Source: Dehalococcoidia bacterium (lineage in GTDB: Bacteria; Chloroflexota; Dehalococcoidia; Plut-88900). From it: a stretch of 6,478 nucleotides of DNA. The notes under the pieces were generated by a model that was not told where the DNA came from, did no database searches, and saw nothing but the letters and a program-made list of their open reading frames with translations. The stretch covers positions 1 to 6,478 of the forward strand of contig JAAXHX010000351.1 in the NCBI GenBank assembly GCA_012270635.1, in the 5' to 3' direction. Every line of letters begins with the position of its first letter. The stretch's first letter is position 1. Positions 1 through 6,461 of this stretch are shown here, piece after piece. Made by a program: the position numbers and the translations under genes.

Positions 1-1019
1 TGTTGGGGTCCAGCGTCCAACACGATTGGCTCGTAGGCACCCTCGGCCGCAGCCAGCGATTCTTCATGGATCATGAAAACGTGACCCCGGGCGTCGGAGA
101 AGATCGCGGTCCAACCGTGACTGTTGACGTAGTGAATTGGCCGCTCTTCCGCGATCTCCAGCGAGTGGCGTGACACGGGCTCACTGACGAGGTCGTAGTG
201 ATCGCCGTGTGGCACGAGGAACACGCCGCCGTCGAAGACGTGGACCCGGTCGTCGCCGTCCTCCGGCCCGCGGGCGAGAACGATGGCGTAGCGATGAGTG
301 GGGCTGGCGTACACGTTCGCGCCGGGTGCGGCGACATCGAACAGTCCACTGTCAACGTCGTCGGTCGATAGATCAATCACGGAGAGGTGCGCTTCTACTC
401 CGTCCGCAACGAGCAGACGCCCAACGGCCATCTTGTCATGGTCGTCGTGGTCGTCGTGGTCGTCATGGTCATCGCCGCCCTCATCCATGTGATCGTCGTG
501 ATCATCGTGATGGCCTTCCTCGGAGAATTCCAGGGGGCCGACACCCTCGCCAAGCGCGACTATCCTTGATGGATCCGCACTAGCGTTGTGCACCAGGTCC
601 TCCAACCAGATAGCCTCAAGGCCAAGACCGATGGACAACACAACGTCCGCGTCCGCAACATTAGAAACGTCGCGAGCCCCTGGCATGATATTGTGCGGAT
701 CGCTGCCCGGCGAATGCAGGCTGAAGACTTCAATCCTGTCCCCACCTACCACCTCGGCCCAGTCGGCTACGATGTTGGAGGTTGTCACCACCTTCAAAGG
801 CGGGCCTGAGGGCGTGGCTGTATCAGCGCCCGTCTGGGTTGGCTGAGCGCTTGTAGACGCAGCGGCAGTTGTGGCAGTTGGCTGTGCTCCTTCCGTTCCC
901 CGTGCGTCCTGGTCATCTGCGCAGGCAGCCAGGAACGCCACACCGAGCACGACAAGACCCACAGCCAAAACCTGCGACGTCTGGCGCAGGTTTTTAATGA
1001 TATTAGATATCATTCTCAT
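1..1019 (-). CDS. Zinc-binding lipoprotein: ZnuA/AztC N-lobe fused at a His-rich loop to an AztD-like propeller (partial, 3' end outside window)
   Basis: This frame is open for 339 codons from ATG 1019 to the window edge, with no stop. Residues 1-33 form a lipoprotein signal: R2/K9/R12, a hydrophobic stretch, then the lipobox LAAC with C33. A Thr/Pro/Ala-rich linker covers about 34-74. Residues 75-163 match the N-terminal lobe of cluster A-I zinc/manganese solute-binding proteins: LKVVTTSNIVADW, VVGGD, SDPH109 (the family's first metal ligand), DADVVLSIGLGLE. A His/Asp-rich loop spans 170-195. The family then continues with DPHxWLDP and a second lobe; here it is replaced by GRLLVAD, LSVIDL, YASPTHRYA and PHGDHYD (271-276), which resemble the periplasmic zinc metallochaperone AztD. 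In aztABCD operons AztD hands zinc to the binding protein AztC, so this would join donor and acceptor. Its likely place is the outer face of the membrane. ATG 1019 is preferred over ATG 1013 because the ribosome binding site lies 9 nt upstream. A recombination or assembly origin of the junction is not excluded. Confidence 0.85.
   Translation of the reverse strand, partial: MRMISNIIKNLRQTSQVLAVGLVVLGVAFLAACADDQDARGTEGAQPTATTAAASTSAQPTQTGADTATPSGPPLKVVTTSNIVADWAEVVGGDRIEVFSLHSPGSDPHNIMPGARDVSNVADADVVLSIGLGLEAIWLEDLVHNASADPSRIVALGEGVGPLEFSEEGHHDDHDDHMDEGGDDHDDHDDHDDHDKMAVGRLLVADGVEAHLSVIDLSTDDVDSGLFDVAAPGANVYASPTHRYAIVLARGPEDGDDRVHVFDGGVFLVPHGDHYDLVSEPVSRHSLEIAEERPIHYVNSHGWTAIFSDARGHVFMIHEESLAAAEGAYEPIVLDAGPQ
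435..512 (-). repeat. His/Asp-rich metal-binding tract (codon repeat GAC-GAC-CAC/CAT)
   Basis: Residues 170-195 are almost only His and Asp with a short DEGG interruption, and the second half is a near-perfect nucleotide repeat of GACGACCAC/T. ZnuA-type proteins carry such a loop before their second zinc ligand, and AztD proteins carry one at the mature N-terminus. This tract is exactly where the protein changes from one family to the other. It would bind zinc with low affinity. At the DNA level it is a plausible recombination or assembly-collapse point. Confidence 0.85.
967..994. repeat. Perfect 10-bp hairpin in the signal-peptide codons
   Basis: AAAACCTGCG (967-976) and CGCAGGTTTT (985-994) are perfect inverted repeats with an 8-nt loop. 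On the plus strand the stem is followed by another T and then AAT, which looks like an intrinsic terminator, but no plus-strand gene precedes it. In the minus-strand mRNA the same stem lies about 25-50 nt after the start codon, inside codons for residues 9-18, and could affect translation or early elongation. Function is unproven. Confidence 0.5.
996..1014. promoter_or_regulatory. 19-bp palindrome, candidate Fur-family (Zur-like) operator over the first codons
   Basis: Read on the minus strand the site is AATGATATCTAATATCATT, with perfect 8-bp arms and a 3-bp centre. Its inner 15 bases match the Fur-family 7-1-7 pattern TGATAAT-N-ATTATCA at 11 of 14 positions by my count. It covers codons 2-8 of the zinc-binding lipoprotein, downstream of the predicted promoter, where a bound repressor could block transcription. 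Because the gene is for zinc handling, Zur is the natural candidate, but the regulator is inferred. The RNA could also fold here and hide the alternative ATG at 1013. Confidence 0.5.
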
Positions 1020-1064: not shown

Positions 1065-1117
1065 CGAGACATGATATCAGATAAAAATTGCCTTTGTCAA
1101 CATCAATTTTTGTCTCG
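1065..1117. repeat. Interrupted 14-bp inverted repeat surrounding the promoter
   Basis: The right arm, 1104-1117, reads CAATTTTTGTCTCG. Its reverse complement is present on the left in two blocks: CGAGACA (1065-1071) and AAAAATTG (1083-1090), separated by 11 bp that contain the TGATATCA palindrome. The -35 box sits in the loop. The AT-rich inner arms alone (8 bp, 13-bp spacer) could arise by chance; their extension by CGAGAC is less expected. It may be an operator, or an ancestral palindrome split by a small insertion. Confidence 0.4.
1071..1100 (-). promoter_or_regulatory. Sigma-70-like promoter of the zinc-binding lipoprotein
   Basis: On the minus strand a perfect -35 box TTGACA (1095-1100) is separated by 18 bp from a -10 box TATCAT (1071-1076), one mismatch from TATAAT. 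Transcription would begin near 1064, giving a leader of about 45 nt that includes the ribosome binding site. The 8-bp palindrome TGATATCA (1072-1079) overlaps the -10 box and echoes the half-sites of the palindrome at 996-1014, so it may be a second operator. Confidence 0.6.
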
Positions 1118-1223
1118 GAGTCTGCACCTTCTATGCGCCGCCGTAGGGTGGTCGGGGTGACGGGACTTCAAGGCAGGTAAATAGTCTCTCCCGCTGTGGC
1201 AACCTCTTTGATCGGTGGCACGG

Positions 1224-1253
1224 AGGCGCTGCCATCGGCGCCAGGCAGCGCTT
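1224..1253. repeat. GC-rich hairpin in the intergenic region
   Basis: GCGCTGCC (1226-1233) pairs with GGCAGCGC (1244-1251) around a 10-nt loop. A G-U and an A-U pair extend the stem on the plus strand to 1224-1253. No T-tract follows on either strand, so a classical terminator is not supported. Confidence 0.35.
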
Positions 1254-1331
1254 AAACGATGCGTTTGCCGCCTTGGGCAGACGTTCCCTACAGGGAGAAC
1301 ACCCAGCCGAAAGTCCGCGATTCAGTCTTGG

Positions 1332-1363
1332 CGGGCCCACCGGGCCCGTCGTCCAGAGACGAC
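1332..1363 (-). terminator. Two adjacent hairpins 50-80 nt after the protease stop; possible transcript end
   Basis: CGGGCCC (1332-1338) and GGGCCCG (1342-1348) form a very stable 7-bp stem with a 3-nt loop. GTCGTC (1348-1353) and GACGAC (1358-1363) form a second stem sharing one base with it. They follow the stop codon of the large minus-strand gene, a fitting place for a transcript end or RNA-stabilising structure. There is no T-run, so intrinsic termination is uncertain. Confidence 0.35.
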
Positions 1364-1412
1364 CCCAGCGCCCCTCAGTGCAGACGCATGCGGGCCGGCC
1401 TATGGAAATCGC

Positions 1413-4400
1413 TTAGTCCCCGACCGAGAAGCCGGTCTCGGCGACCTTGCGGTCACCGTGGTAGACAAACACCCAGTACCGGCCGGGGGCGAGTCCAAAG
1501 CTGGGAGGAGGAGGGTCCAAGGGGATCCACTCGGCGTGCCAGGTAGAACCGGGGGAGATGGTAAACCGCAGCGTTCGGCGATAGAACGCAAAGCCGTCTT
1601 CGAAATGGCCCACAATGGAAAGCGTGATCTCGCGAGGATCTATGGGGGCGGGGAAGGTGAAGCCGAGCATGAGCACCGGGCCGCCTTGGTCGCTCCGCTT
1701 GGAGAGAACGGACACGGGAGTCCCGTCGGGCAGTACGATCTCCGATGTCACAATGGTTACCTCGGAGTCTTCCAGGTAGGGGGTGACCGGTTGCGTGTCG
1801 CTTGGCATGACGCCGCGTGGGGGCGGGCCGTTGTACCACCGGTCTACGATGGCGTCGATGTCCTCGGCCTGGTCTGGGGCTGCCTCTTTGAACGCCGCAC
1901 GGAAGCCGTCGACGTTGTCGTCAGCAGGGCTTGAGACCTTCAGATAGAGGTTGCCGAGTCCAACCCTGAAAAGTTCCGCGCCCAGGGTACGGTACAAGTC
2001 AGCGAAGATGCGTTTGCCGAAGGCGTACATGCAATCGTAAGACCCGGATACCTCAAACTCAGCGATGGTGTTGGTGAGCGCGCAGGGGTAGTTGTTGGCA
2101 TCGATGGGCCTGCCGGTCCTGGGATAATCGACGATATCCTCAATGATGCCTGCGCCACCCTCGGAAATCCACGACCACCGACTGCCGAAATAGTAGTGGC
2201 CGACCTCGTGAATGATGGCGCCGGAGAACCAGTTGCCTCCCCAGTCGCGTCCCTCAACATAGGCGGGCATGGAGATGTAACGGCCAAAGTGGGCGGCGCG
2301 ACCTTCGAAAGGATCGAAGAGGACCCGGACTATCTCTGCGGGCAACGGCTCTCCCATTAAGGCCTCGGTCCCAAGGACGGCGTACTCCAGGTCATCCATG
2401 CTGCGCGGCGCCCCTTGGCCCTCGCGGATGATGACGAAGGGCGTCGGACCTGAATGCGGCAGGTCGATGATGCGCTCCTCCGCGGTGACGCTAAACTCGG
2501 GGTCGTCAATGGTGCGCAGGGCGGACGCGACGCCGGCGCCGCCCAGGATGCGGCCGAGCATCCAGTTCTCAGCGTCCTCGAGGCCATCCTGTATCCACGC
2601 AGCCTCGGTGACCAGTCGGACTACTTGATGGGCCAGAGTCACGTCGTCGCCGGACACGCGCTGAGCAATTTGCCAGAAAACATCCCACTCTCGGTCCGTC
2701 AGCCCATCCCTGATCCACGGGGTGTCGAGCAGCGCTCTCACCGTTCCGACGGCTATGGTTTCATCCTCGTATGCCGTAAGCCATGCGGTGTCTACCAGCA
2801 GCAGGCGCTCGGGTTCGACAATCCCGTCTTGAAACCAGGGTTCTTCAACAAGGGCGTTGACCAAGCGCAGTCGCGGATCAACGGCATCGACACTTAAAAG
2901 CGGGTGGACGCCCGAAAGGAGTTGCAGTTCCGTCTCATCCAGGCCATCTGCAACCCAAGGCTCTTGTCGCAAGGTCCTGGCGGCAAGAAGAAAAGCGGGA
3001 ACACCCGTCTCGCTGTACGAGCCGGCTCCCCAATGGAGCGCTGAAAGCAAACTGAGTTCAACTTGCCCAATGCCGTCCAGCACCCAAGGTTCCTCGGCCA
3101 AGGCCGCCATGAGCGAGGCTGCCGCCGCGGCGATTTCTTCGCTGTCGATCGCACCCCAGAAGGCAAGGTCGAGAAGCCCTCGCTCCCCATTGGATAGGCC
3201 GTCCAGCACCCAGGGTTCGCCGGCCAAGGCGCCCAGCAGTAGGGCCGCGGCCTCGGCGCTCTCTTGGCTAAGAAGCACTCTCCAAGAGGCTGCCGCAAGA
3301 AGCCCTTGCTCTTCATCGGATAGGCCATCCACCACCCACGGTTCCGCGGTCAGGACCTCTAGCAGCCGGGCCGCATCTGCCGAACTCTTTTCGCTATCCA
3401 CCCCGCCCCACGGCGCGGCCTCGAGAAGCCCTCGCTCCTCATCGGACAGGCCATCCAACACCCAAGACTCATCGACCAGAGCATCCAGCAGCAGGGCCAC
3501 CGACTCGGCCCGCTCTGTATTGTCCACCTCGGCCCACGGCGCAACCCCGAGCAAGCTCCGCTCCCCATCGGATAAGCCGTCCTCCACCCAAGGTTTGTCG
3601 ACCAGAGCGCCCAACAACAGGGTCGTCAACTGGGCCCGCTCTGCGCTGTCCACCTCGCCCCACGGCGCAACCCCGAGCAGCTCTCGCTCCCCATCCGATA
3701 GGCCATCCTCCACCCACGGCTCGTCTGCCAGCGCACCCAGTAGTAAGGCCACCGATTTGGCCCTCTCTTCGTTATCCACTTCGTACCACGGCGTAGCCCC
3801 TATAAGCTCCCGCTCCCCATCCGACAGGCCGTCCAGTACCCACGGTTCCCCGGCAAGGGTGCCCAATAGCCGGGTCACAGCCTCGGACATCTCTTCACCG
3901 TCTACCTCCCCCCACGGCGCGACCCCGAGCAGTTCCCGCTCCCCATCCGATAGGCCGTCCTCCACCCAAGATTCCCCGACCAGTGCGCCCAGGAGCAGGG
4001 CCACGGTAACCGCCCTCTCTTCGCTGTCCACCTCTCCCCACGGCGCAGCCCCGAGCAGCTCTCGCTCCCCTTCCGACACGCCGTCTTCCACCCAAGGTTC
4101 CCTGACCAATGCGCCCAGCAGTAGGGCCGCCGATTTGGCCCTCTCTTCGCTGTCCACCTCGGCCCACGGCGCAGCCCCTATAAGCTCCCACTCCCCTTCC
4201 GATAGGCCATCCTCTACCCACGGCTCGTCGGCCAGAGCGCCCAGGAGCAGAGCCACGGCCTCAGCCCTCTCTTCGTTATCCACCTCGTACCACGGCGCAG
4301 CCCCGAGCAGCTCTCGCTCCCCATCCGATAGGCCATCCTGCACCCAAGGTTCCTCGGTCAGCGCGCCCAGCAGCAGGGTCGTCAACTGGGCCCGCTCTGC

Positions 4401-6461
4401 GCTGTCCACCTCGCCCCACGGCGCAGCCCCGAGCAGCTCTCGCTCCCCATCCGATAGGCCATCCTGCACCCAAGGTTCCTCGGTCAGCGCGCCCAGCAGT
4501 AGGGCCGCCGATTTGGCCCTCTCTTCGCTGTCCACCTCGCCCCACGGCGCAGCCCCGAGCAGCTCTCGCTCCCCATCCGACACGCCGTCTTCCATCCACA
4601 GTTCCCCGACCAATGCACCCAGCAGTAGAGCCGCCGATTTGGCCCTCTCTTCGCTGTCTACCTCGGCCCACGGCGCAGCCCCTATAAGCTCCCGCTCCCC
4701 TTCCGATAGGCCATCCTCTACCCACGGCTCGTCGGCCAGAGCGCCCAGCAGCCGGACCACCGATTCGGCCCTCTCTTCGCTGTCCACCTCCGCCCACGGC
4801 GTAGCCCCTATAAGCCCCCACTCCCCATCCGATAAGCCGTCCTCCACCCACGGCTTGTTGGCTAGGGCGTCCAGCAGCCGGGCCACGGCCTCAGCCCTCT
4901 CTTCGCTGTCCACTTCCTCCCACGGTGCAGCCCCGAGAAGTCCCCACTCCCCTTCCGATAGGCCATCCTCTACCCACGGCTCGTCGGCCAGAGCGCCCAG
5001 CAGCCGGACCACCGATTCGGCCCTCTCTTCGCTGTCCACCTCCGCCCACGGCGCGACCCCAAGCAGTACCCGCTCCCCTTCCGATAGACCATCCAGCACC
5101 CAAGGTTTGTTGGTTAGGGCTTCCAGCAGCCGGGCCAAGGCCTCAGCCCTCTCTTCGCTGTCCACCTCATACCACGGCGCAGCGCTGAGAAGCTCCCGCT
5201 CCCCTTCCGATAGACCATCCAGCACCCACGGCTTGTTGGCTAGGGCGTCCAGCAGCCGGGCCACGGCCTCAGCCCTCTCTTCGCTGTCCACCTCATACCA
5301 CGGCGCAGCCCGGAGCAGCCCTCGCTCCCCATCCGACAGGCCGTCCTCCACCCAAGGTTCGTCGGCCAGAGCGTCCAGCAGTAGGGCCGCCGATTCGGCC
5401 CTCTCTTCGTTATCCACTTCGTACCACGGCGTAGCCCCTATAAGCCCTCGCTCCCCCTCCGATAGACCATCCAGCACCCACGGCTTGTTGGCTAGGGCGT
5501 CCAGCAGCCGGGCCACGGCCTCAGCCCTCTCTTCGCTGTCCACCTCATACCACGGCGCAGCCCCGAGAAGCCCTCGCTCCCCTTCCGATAGACCATCCAG
5601 CACCCACGGCTTGTTGGCTAGGGCACCGAACAGGCGAGTCGCGGCCTCTGCACTTTCCCTATTGTCGACCTCCCCCCACGGCGCAGCCCCGAGAAGCCCC
5701 CGCTCCACATCCGACAGGCCGTCTTCCACCCACGGCTCGTCGGCCAGAGCGCCCAGGAGACGCCAGAGCTGTGGTGCGCCGCCGGGAGAAGTACGGACTA
5801 CTGGGGCGATATCCTCAATCAGAGTGGCTTCGGGAGTGGTGAGGCCGTCGTCAACCCAGGGCTCTTGCAGGAGAGCGTTTAAGGCATGAAGGATACCGTG
5901 CTCATCGGGGAGATCCCCCTCTCCGAGGTGCGAGAGGACAAACTGTTCGTCCTCCGTGAGGCCGTCGATCACCCACGGCTCCTGTATGAGAGCGCCAAAG
6001 GAAGCGGGCTGCCACCGGAGCCTGCCGAGAAGGACAAGGGTGTCGGCGTCTACGCTGTCGACGGTGTCTAGGAAGTCCATGTCGGCGATGCGGAGGGCAT
6101 CAACCGGATTCTGCCCCGCGAGGAGAGTCAAGCCTTCCACCGAGGCAATCTCGGCGGCATCAAGGCCGTCGGCGACCCAGGACTTTACGATGATGGTGTG
6201 GAGGACAGAGATGTCGGCCATGGCCAGGGCCACGAGGCTCTGAGCGGCGTCGAGCTCAGGGTCGTCGATTCCGTCGGCGACCCACGGAAGGGCCGTGATG
6301 GCGTTGGAGGTGTCCGGGTGGCGTGCGTCCAACTGTTCGGCCCCGTCAAGCTCCTGCCAGACGGCAAGGTCTGGTGAAGGGAGGAGGGCCCAGACGGCCA
6401 ACCCGACCCCCAAGGCGACGAGCACGAAGATAACCAGCCCCAGAAAACGCCACCGCATCAT
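1413..6461 (-). CDS. Membrane-anchored giant repeat protein with C-terminal zinc metallopeptidase domain
   Basis: The product has 1682 residues and ends in TAA. A basic start (R3, R5) and hydrophobic residues 6-27 form a signal anchor with no lipobox, so the rest should be outside the cell. Residues 59 to about 1305 hold about 30 helical repeats beginning PWVxDGLS; those at 243-1124 are all exactly 42 long. Residues about 1305-1550 form a metallopeptidase domain: HEVGH at 1418-1422, then WISEGGA with E1434 as likely third zinc ligand, as in gluzincin (MA clan) peptidases with an HExxH...WxxEG signature. The only two cysteines, C1460 and C1477, lie just after it and may form a disulfide. Residues about 1560-1682 are beta-rich and end with GRYWVFVYHGDRKVAETGF, like an Ig-type domain. 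The exact family and substrate are not recognised. ATG 6461 and ATG 6458 are both possible starts; the frame stays open to the window edge, so a start just beyond 6478 is also possible. Confidence 0.9.
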   Translation of the reverse strand: MMRWRFLGLVIFVLVALGVGLAVWALLPSPDLAVWQELDGAEQLDARHPDTSNAITALPWVADGIDDPELDAAQSLVALAMADISVLHTIIVKSWVADGLDAAEIASVEGLTLLAGQNPVDALRIADMDFLDTVDSVDADTLVLLGRLRWQPASFGALIQEPWVIDGLTEDEQFVLSHLGEGDLPDEHGILHALNALLQEPWVDDGLTTPEATLIEDIAPVVRTSPGGAPQLWRLLGALADEPWVEDGLSDVERGLLGAAPWGEVDNRESAEAATRLFGALANKPWVLDGLSEGERGLLGAAPWYEVDSEERAEAVARLLDALANKPWVLDGLSEGERGLIGATPWYEVDNEERAESAALLLDALADEPWVEDGLSDGERGLLRAAPWYEVDSEERAEAVARLLDALANKPWVLDGLSEGERELLSAAPWYEVDSEERAEALARLLEALTNKPWVLDGLSEGERVLLGVAPWAEVDSEERAESVVRLLGALADEPWVEDGLSEGEWGLLGAAPWEEVDSEERAEAVARLLDALANKPWVEDGLSDGEWGLIGATPWAEVDSEERAESVVRLLGALADEPWVEDGLSEGERELIGAAPWAEVDSEERAKSAALLLGALVGELWMEDGVSDGERELLGAAPWGEVDSEERAKSAALLLGALTEEPWVQDGLSDGERELLGAAPWGEVDSAERAQLTTLLLGALTEEPWVQDGLSDGERELLGAAPWYEVDNEERAEAVALLLGALADEPWVEDGLSEGEWELIGAAPWAEVDSEERAKSAALLLGALVREPWVEDGVSEGERELLGAAPWGEVDSEERAVTVALLLGALVGESWVEDGLSDGERELLGVAPWGEVDGEEMSEAVTRLLGTLAGEPWVLDGLSDGERELIGATPWYEVDNEERAKSVALLLGALADEPWVEDGLSDGERELLGVAPWGEVDSAERAQLTTLLLGALVDKPWVEDGLSDGERSLLGVAPWAEVDNTERAESVALLLDALVDESWVLDGLSDEERGLLEAAPWGGVDSEKSSADAARLLEVLTAEPWVVDGLSDEEQGLLAAASWRVLLSQESAEAAALLLGALAGEPWVLDGLSNGERGLLDLAFWGAIDSEEIAAAAASLMAALAEEPWVLDGIGQVELSLLSALHWGAGSYSETGVPAFLLAARTLRQEPWVADGLDETELQLLSGVHPLLSVDAVDPRLRLVNALVEEPWFQDGIVEPERLLLVDTAWLTAYEDETIAVGTVRALLDTPWIRDGLTDREWDVFWQIAQRVSGDDVTLAHQVVRLVTEAAWIQDGLEDAENWMLGRILGGAGVASALRTIDDPEFSVTAEERIIDLPHSGPTPFVIIREGQGAPRSMDDLEYAVLGTEALMGEPLPAEIVRVLFDPFEGRAAHFGRYISMPAYVEGRDWGGNWFSGAIIHEVGHYYFGSRWSWISEGGAGIIEDIVDYPRTGRPIDANNYPCALTNTIAEFEVSGSYDCMYAFGKRIFADLYRTLGAELFRVGLGNLYLKVSSPADDNVDGFRAAFKEAAPDQAEDIDAIVDRWYNGPPPRGVMPSDTQPVTPYLEDSEVTIVTSEIVLPDGTPVSVLSKRSDQGGPVLMLGFTFPAPIDPREITLSIVGHFEDGFAFYRRTLRFTISPGSTWHAEWIPLDPPPPSFGLAPGRYWVFVYHGDRKVAETGFSVGD
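2160..2210 (-). other. Zinc-protease active site (HEVGH ... E)
   Basis: Codons 1418-1434 read HEVGH, then YYFGSRWSWIS, then E. The two histidines and E1434 would bind zinc and E1419 would be the catalytic base. The 11 residues between the second His and E1434 are few for thermolysin-type enzymes, but short spacings occur in MA-like families with a 'P-WLxEG' motif. All key residues are present, so an active enzyme is expected. Confidence 0.75.
2547..3089 (-). repeat. Diverged C-terminal repeat units (about five)
   Basis: Residues 1125 to about 1305 continue the repeat in lengths of 43, 40, 40 and 40, then a final unit running into the peptidase domain. They keep the opening motif (PWVLDG, PWVADG, PWFQDG, PWIRDG, AWIQDG) but little of the rest, unlike the central block. 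Confidence 0.8.
4290..4499 (-). repeat. Recent one-unit duplication inside the array
   Basis: Bases 4290-4373 are identical to 4416-4499 over 84 bases at an offset of exactly 126. Silent positions match too, so the copies are recent or were homogenised by gene conversion. Confidence 0.85.
4695..5053 (-). repeat. Recent two-unit duplication inside the array
   Basis: Bases 4695-4801 are identical to 4947-5053 over 107 bases at an offset of 252, which is two units. The unit lying between them differs, so the copied block was a dimer. Confidence 0.85.
5206..5563 (-). repeat. Second two-unit duplication inside the array
   Basis: Bases 5206-5311 are identical to 5458-5563 over 106 bases, again at an offset of 252. 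Together with the previous block this shows that dimers, not only single units, have been amplified. Confidence 0.85.
5736..6287 (-). repeat. Diverged N-terminal repeat units (four to five)
   Basis: Residues 59-242 contain PWVADG, SWVADG, PWVIDG and PWVDDG openings spaced 35, 68, 39 and 42. The 68-residue gap probably hides an eroded unit beginning near residue 129 (DFLDTVDSVDADTL). These are the oldest-looking copies along with the C-terminal ones. Confidence 0.8.

Follow-up and report, generated by a model that had tools for sequence, protein, structure and literature searches.

A predicted zinc-binding lipoprotein of Dehalococcoidia, with an AztD-like propeller nested between the lobes of an AztC-like solute-binding protein

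The window considered here is a 6,478-nucleotide stretch of DNA from a Dehalococcoidia bacterium (GenBank assembly GCA_012270635.1, contig JAAXHX010000351.1), the left end of which carries, on the minus strand (3..1019), the 5' part of a gene for a putative nested zinc-binding lipoprotein. Its 339 codons form a single stop-free frame that is still open at the window's left edge, past which the gene continues. The encoded protein starts with a signal peptide and the lipobox LAAC, recognised from the sequence, with Cys33 as the predicted lipid-bearing residue (921..1019), followed by a low-complexity Thr/Ala/Gln/Pro tether (801..920); in the structure model of a full-length relative, P0145, pLDDT falls below 50 at residues 32-66. 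Residues 74-163 (531..800) correspond to the N-lobe of a cluster A-I solute-binding protein (SBP), as indicated by the Pfam family PF01297 (77.2 bits, gathering cut-off 29, residues 77-189, profile positions 1-98 of 263), by the AztC model NF040870 (68.1 bits, with the match reaching model position 106 of 277) and by the fold match of P0145. Within this lobe, H109 in the motif DPH (693..695) is the counterpart of the AztC zinc ligand H61. A first His/Asp linker (432..530) follows at the place of the AztC D-loop and includes, at 435..474, a 9-base tandem repeat of 4.4 copies, with no strand assigned, that codes for Asp-His-Asp. The remainder, residues 197-339 (3..431), is the first third of an AztD-like beta-propeller, identified with model NF038015 (E 1.9e-5, residues 204-325) and by comparison with P0145. 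It contains the AztD site 2 motif HGDHYD (192..209), in which H271, H274 and D276 correspond to H99, H102 and D104 of Paracoccus denitrificans AztD, and H296 (132..134), which an alignment carrying PDB numbering matches to the site 1 ligand H124. All these protein features lie on the minus strand.

A preliminary description of this DNA had proposed a single frame with a lipobox, a ZnuA/AztC N-lobe, the ligand H109 and a His/Asp loop, and all of these are borne out in the window sequence. The AztD-like propeller it described does start here, but only about a third of it lies in the window. Its statement that the second lobe of the binding protein is missing does not hold; the lobe is cut off, because the frame runs off the window edge, and a twin protein carries the whole propeller and the C-lobe. 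This twin, P0145, has 783 aa and comes from a contig of 2,812 bases. In its alignment with the window protein 336 of 336 residues agree, and the single gap, three residues long, falls in the Asp/His repeat and equals one unit of the tandem repeat. P0145 presents, in order, a lipobox, a ZnuA/AztC N-lobe, a His/Asp linker, a complete AztD-like propeller, a second His/Asp linker and a ZnuA/AztC C-lobe; from this order, the propeller is therefore placed in the D-loop. ZnuA (PF01297, 264.4 bits) is the only Pfam family matched, and its match reaches residue 781 of 783. Residues 73-783 gave a fold match to AztC, with two lobes and the metal site between them, of which the window shows the N-lobe only, and the AztD propeller fold is present in the inserted part. 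Over aligned residues, P0145 is 21% identical to AztD (6ck1_B) and 36% to AztC (5kzj_B).

The nested order is recurrent. The first search for relatives, restricted to 0.55-1.75 times the query length, returned C-terminal pieces that start in the propeller and finish in the ZnuA C-lobe (P0024, P0036, P0045 and P0085), and a second search, with P0003 as the query, returned full-length proteins, mostly of 745-997 aa. Purpose-built hidden Markov models (HMMs) for the N-lobe (N), the propeller (D) and the C-lobe (C) classed 237 proteins, the window piece included, as 108 N-D-C, 49 plain N-C, 44 N-D with the remainder cut, 12 N, 12 D, 8 D-C, 3 N-D-D and 1 D-D-C. None of the 237 had both lobes with the propeller outside them, and no case of a propeller appended at either end of the SBP was seen among all classified frames. 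With 108 such proteins, the natural in-frame AztC/AztD-type lipoprotein envisaged earlier is supported; the accompanying idea that the N-lobe alone serves as an anchor or docking part was not sustained, the binding protein being complete in full-length relatives, with the propeller between its lobes. In addition, the NCBIfam match to AztC is split around AztD in 7 of the 10 proteins scanned and in three further nested loci. Among 216 SBPs (143 nested and 73 plain, frames with short lobes having been dropped), the nested linkers have medians of 34 and 35 residues, with median His/Asp/Glu shares of 0.70 and 0.73, and the plain D-loop has a median of 60 residues, likewise rich in His/Asp/Glu and without a propeller. 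It could be supposed that assembly or gene calling had joined two separate genes, since many relatives are metagenome contigs and several matches look cut or frameshifted at their ends. This explanation is hardly credible given the same order in 108 proteins from many assemblies, including the 5.4-Mb chromosome OY282376.1 (L011), the stop-free nested frames (the single frame found interrupted, L077, encodes a lone AztD) and an empty site with matching flanks in the locus pair L017/L036, described below.

Variations on this architecture were also observed. P0122 and P0123 have two propellers in a row beside one SBP lobe (N-D-D and D-D-C), which suggests, at the sequence level, that a double-cassette form exists. 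P0172, P0186 and L031:9125-12106, each about 990 aa long, have two AztD-like propellers in tandem; the N-lobe label that the HMMs gave them is probably spurious, as NCBIfam matched AztD twice and an SBP nowhere in P0172 and L031. An extra segment of some 170 aa, alpha-helix-like by eye, separates the lipobox from the N-lobe in P0148 and in further nested proteins about 910-997 aa long. In the plain proteins P0047, P0056 and P0059 the same loop holds, in the propeller's place, a repeat insert that appears helical by eye; the lobes of P0047 are 91% identical to those of the nested P0140.

The metal ligands of both parents are largely retained in the nested forms. Ligands were tabulated in 150 nested sequences, which collapse to 139 distinct proteins at 99% identity, 125 at 95% and 87 at 90%; this table and a set of 42 locus-derived nested frames were de-duplicated by exact core sequence only, L119, L120, L124, L127 and L134 belong, as second pieces, to genes that are in the count already, and the protein (P) and locus (L) sets may overlap. 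Each site 1 and site 2 AztD ligand tested is kept in 147-150 of the 150 (site 2 ligands in 148-150), with the C-terminal ligand H408 lying outside the positions covered, and both cysteines of the AztD disulfide pair are present in all 150. The three AztC histidines (H61, H138 and H204) are kept in 148-150, and P0145 has counterparts of all four AztC ligands, H61, H138, H204 and D279. Against the AztC model, P0125 reaches 257.5 bits, below the NCBIfam equivalog cut-off of 350, and scores 241.1 bits with the Deinococcus-type MntC model; L018 scores higher with MntC (181.1 bits) than with AztC (168.2 bits). Manganese or iron could on these scores be the transported metal instead of zinc, which is quite improbable in view of the third ligand, His in 149 of 150 sequences where the manganese-binding PsaA aligns Glu, and of an insert that is itself an AztD-type zinc domain.

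The genomic setting of the main nested type points to a transporter operon. In loci L001-L041, an ABC ATPase gene lies directly downstream in 15 of the 16 main-type loci with room for it, and a permease gene comes next in 13 of 15; L001 and L015 were scanned and gave PF00005 (ATPase) and PF00950 (ABC-3 permease) matches. The ATPase start codon overlaps the nested stop codon by four bases in 13 of 14 loci checked and by one base in L008, an arrangement that fits translational coupling. The nested order, the kept ligands and the operon in relatives are read from sequence and predicted structure together. All 15 genomes with a nested gene that were searched gave at least three PF01297 stretches, of which the nested gene explains two at most.

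Comparison of nested and plain relatives gives indications on how the propeller moves. The lobes encoded at L017 (nested, a frame of 779 codons) and L036 (plain, 385 codons) are 97% identical, and the two genes differ by 394 in-frame codons between His/Asp-coding runs. Their DNA is 94-95% identical in two blocks, one covering about 0.56 kb upstream plus the first part of the gene and the other running from the second linker across the ATPase and permease genes; because the available flanks beyond the operon and these 0.56 kb do not match, they are taken as matching operons and not as proven syntenic neighbourhoods. In the matching operons compared, related genomes carry one gene with or without the propeller, instead of the two complete separate genes that the preliminary description had considered. 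Thirty nested/plain discordant pairs, in which each frame is used once and one gene (L046, L124) is counted twice, have 84-97% of lobe residues in common. For 56 binding proteins under a mixture model, a single clade of nested forms is rejected (p-AU 4.7e-13), and the well-supported branches of the tree force at least 13 changes, a count that is not a frequency, because the rows were deliberately chosen to include discordant pairs; label shuffles gave counts as low in 100 and 117 of 500. An earlier FastTree set of 95 rows gave 20 changes. Propellers can also be close where the lobes are distant: L024 and L072 have 78% of the propeller in common and only 36-38% of the lobes, and L018 and P0145 have 79% and 35-36%, whereas L046 and P0145 present the reverse pattern (propeller 36%, lobes 67-68%). 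As judged from these sequences, the propeller and the lobes have separate histories, and in the propeller tree the scaffold types and lone AztD-like proteins are intermixed. The longest exact DNA words common to both linkers average 15.1 bases versus 10.6 after codon shuffling, and 17 of 42 frames beat all 50 shuffles, which fits recombination at repeats without proving it. The changes in the trees and pairs compared may be either gains or losses of the propeller. With confidence evenly balanced, it is proposed that the propeller may be a mobile cassette for zinc handling that stays in frame as it is acquired, lost or swapped from one SBP to another by recombination, for which the flanking His/Asp-coding D-loop repeats would be the likely joints, and so a switch between plain and self-chaperoning forms.

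A mechanism is suggested by the two-protein system. In P. denitrificans, according to two reports (PMC6689063, PMC7463823), acceptance of zinc from AztD depends on the AztC D-loop and the three His; a docking model threads the D-loop into the AztD pore, bringing site 2 into the AztC cleft, and site 2 is built partly from the N- and C-terminal strands of AztD. An AztD inserted into the D-loop by its own neighbouring termini would keep permease docking, would tether site 2 near the cleft rim and would replace a slow meeting of two proteins by an intramolecular step. The reading that we favour, and hold to be fairly probable, is that of a lipoprotein-anchored zinc SBP of the AztC/ZnuA kind with an AztD-like propeller in its D-loop, in which zinc is handed over intramolecularly. 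Zinc binding, hand-off and uptake by the nested protein would then proceed by capture of zinc at the two propeller sites, collection and relay by the His/Asp linkers, transfer within one molecule from propeller site 2 to the three-His site in the SBP cleft, and delivery by the SBP to the ABC-3 permease encoded next door.

Several observations weigh against this reading. At the position of the fourth AztC ligand, D279, the 150 nested sequences have Asp 9 times, Gly 121 times, Gln 17 times and a gap 3 times, and P0125 (138 bits) and L018 (141.2 bits) score below the 400-bit cut-off of the AztD model. One gene (L046:871-3144, the same as L124) has a propeller without H102, H124, H167 and H218, with the Cys pair and the SBP His kept, so that the propeller may serve without zinc there. 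The propeller is not essential, because many close relatives do without it. In L011 the order is plain SBP, ATPase, permease and then the nested gene, which is not at the head, and the two other scaffold types (L018-L024; L028-L029) have adjacent transporter genes in 0 of 9 cases in L001-L041. For the window gene itself, the downstream neighbours lie beyond the window. The P0145 model, with a pTM of 0.56, does not fix how the propeller would dock onto the cleft, and no biochemistry of any nested protein was found in the open-access literature searched.

This lack of a firm domain arrangement is also compatible with the propeller and the His/Asp linkers acting as a zinc store or antenna, with transfer to the cleft via solution or between molecules; the linkers are by themselves rich in His/Asp/Glu, and plain relatives keep similar loops with no propeller. 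Such a role is possible but rather unlikely, since the insert lies at the very loop on which a separate AztC depends for associative zinc transfer from its AztD partner (PMC6689063, PMC7463823), and site 2, modelled beside the AztC cleft, is almost invariably kept. Alternatively, the D-loop may be a permissive insertion hot spot and the propeller a bulky surface or adhesion domain, the zinc sites of which serve its own fold only. Other inserts do occur there (the choice-of-anchor M region of TIGR03772 proteins at L039 and L041, and the helical-looking repeat of the P0047 type), the presence of the propeller is patchy, and the L046 gene lacks most propeller ligands. This is improbable, as the insert belongs specifically to a family of zinc chaperones and almost always retains the ligands of sites 1 and 2, and its host is a zinc-type SBP with three His, placed in a transporter operon in the main type.

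The carriers of the nested protein are uncultured Chloroflexota and some Acidimicrobiia; judging from isolate codes, the hosts may be sponge-associated. The AztD model matched in 13 of 400 sampled Chloroflexota genomes (the phylum of G001), five of them nested and the others weak or partial. The family of G001 gave matches in 13 of 46 genomes: 9 nested, 2 more nested and truncated by contig ends, 1 lone and strong (L055) and 1 weak. The L055 frame (1111-3885, 925 aa) has its AztD-like domain (241.6 bits) at residues 131-485, and in the more than 400 residues that follow neither Pfam nor NCBIfam matched a family at E 0.001. Of the 20 genomes in the order of G007, 14 matched, and all 16 places were nested; in the order of G009, 7 of 38 genomes gave 9 places, 2 nested and 7 lone, of which the lone L084 begins near a contig end. 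Acidimicrobiia (the class of G005) had matches in 16 of 296 genomes, comprising 5 nested, 1 cut, 4 lone, 1 lone with an internal stop and 5 weak. In the control phylum Actinomycetota (that of G011), 22 of 396 genomes matched, and the sole match inspected, in G1003, picked for its longest frame (838 aa), is a lone AztD with a long stop-free stretch upstream. PF01297 was absent from the best 120 listed (389-429 aa) of 2131 relatives of the Pseudarthrobacter AztD, a search limited to 228-726 aa, in which a full nested protein of that kind would be missed.

Upstream of the window gene, a sigma-70-type promoter-like site, TTGACA-18-TATCAT (1071..1100, minus strand), matches at 11 of 12 positions with TG before the second hexamer, and two such sites were found in 980-1450 versus 0.2 expected from shuffles. 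A 19-base palindrome, AATGATATtagATATCATT, lies just inside the start codon (996..1014, no strand); an equally long arm arose in 21 of 1000 shuffles of the -250..+40 region, and the palindrome is a candidate Fur/Zur-family operator. Palindromes shaped like Fur/Zur boxes occur at L012, L015, L017, L035, L036, L072 and the window start, palindromes of other shapes at L001, L007, L039, L046, L115 and L116, and none was found in the other upstream regions inspected. The upstream operator evidence is weak, because several of the palindrome-bearing loci are close kin. Perfect palindromes around TGATAATGATTATCA span 35 bases at L017 and 33 bases at L035, before nested genes, with a shorter one at L036 before a plain gene; they begin about 56-66 bases before the chosen start codon and resemble Fur/Zur boxes in shape. 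A palindrome type with TTGCAA-like half-sites, seen at L001 before a nested gene and at L115 and L116 before plain genes, is possibly another metal-regulator operator. The neighbouring window gene (1413-6461, minus strand) encodes a protein of 1682 aa, which has a hydrophobic stretch in its N-terminal part, a 42-residue repeat in about 20 copies (3170-5756, period 126 bases) and, in its C-terminal region, the sequence HEVGHYYFG, a metallopeptidase-like motif; its Pfam matches lacked a significant stretch, and no domain was clear.

Both parents of the nested protein are known. AztC and AztD of the P. denitrificans aztABCD system (PDB 5W57/5KZJ and 6CK1) are alike to its parts in both folds, in the AztD site 1 and 2 ligands, in the disulfide Cys pair and in the three AztC His, and the main nested type likewise lies in a transporter operon. 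They are, in contrast, separate proteins that meet transiently, whereas here the AztD-like part is nested in an AztC-like D-loop. Their description as separate partners holds for canonical systems with separate aztC and aztD genes, such as L037, while the nested relatives join both in one protein; a second, weaker AztD-like propeller frame (L037:8199-9914, 75.7 bits) was seen beside the separate genes on this Pseudarthrobacter plasmid. The streptococcal AdcA is likewise one lipoprotein in which a zinc SBP is joined to another zinc-binding domain, but that domain is the unrelated ZinT, attached at the C-terminus via an 11-residue linker and not between the lobes (PMC7858048); P0125 matched the AdcA model NF033605 in the SBP part only (136 bits, cut-off 700), and no C-terminal ZinT domain was found in the NCBIfam scan of P0125 or the Pfam scan of P0145. 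TIGR03772, an anchored-repeat ABC transporter SBP of Actinomycetota (L039, L041), belongs to the same SBP fold family and has an insert at the same loop, a choice-of-anchor M/TIGR03769 region versus the zinc propeller here; P0125, with its AztD-like insert, scores 170.5 bits against the cut-off of 350.45, compared with 753.7 and 735.3 bits for the controls L039 and L041. ZnuA has a His-rich loop between its lobes, as in the plain relatives, with no domain inserted. No report of a nested AztD, of its recurrence or of scaffold exchange was found in the open-access literature searched, most subscription papers and bioRxiv lying outside it; the parts and the partner logic are known, and the nested topology, its recurrence and the scaffold exchange are new to that literature.

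The hand-off of zinc from chaperone to SBP is unsettled because separate AztC and AztD meet only briefly. A protein in which both partners are joined at the transfer loop would make the geometry of the transfer directly accessible to crystallisation and timing, and near-identical protein pairs with and without the propeller represent a ready-made natural control. Moreover, the patchy, scaffold-hopping spread is an uncommon instance of an entire folded domain entering and leaving a repeat-flanked loop.
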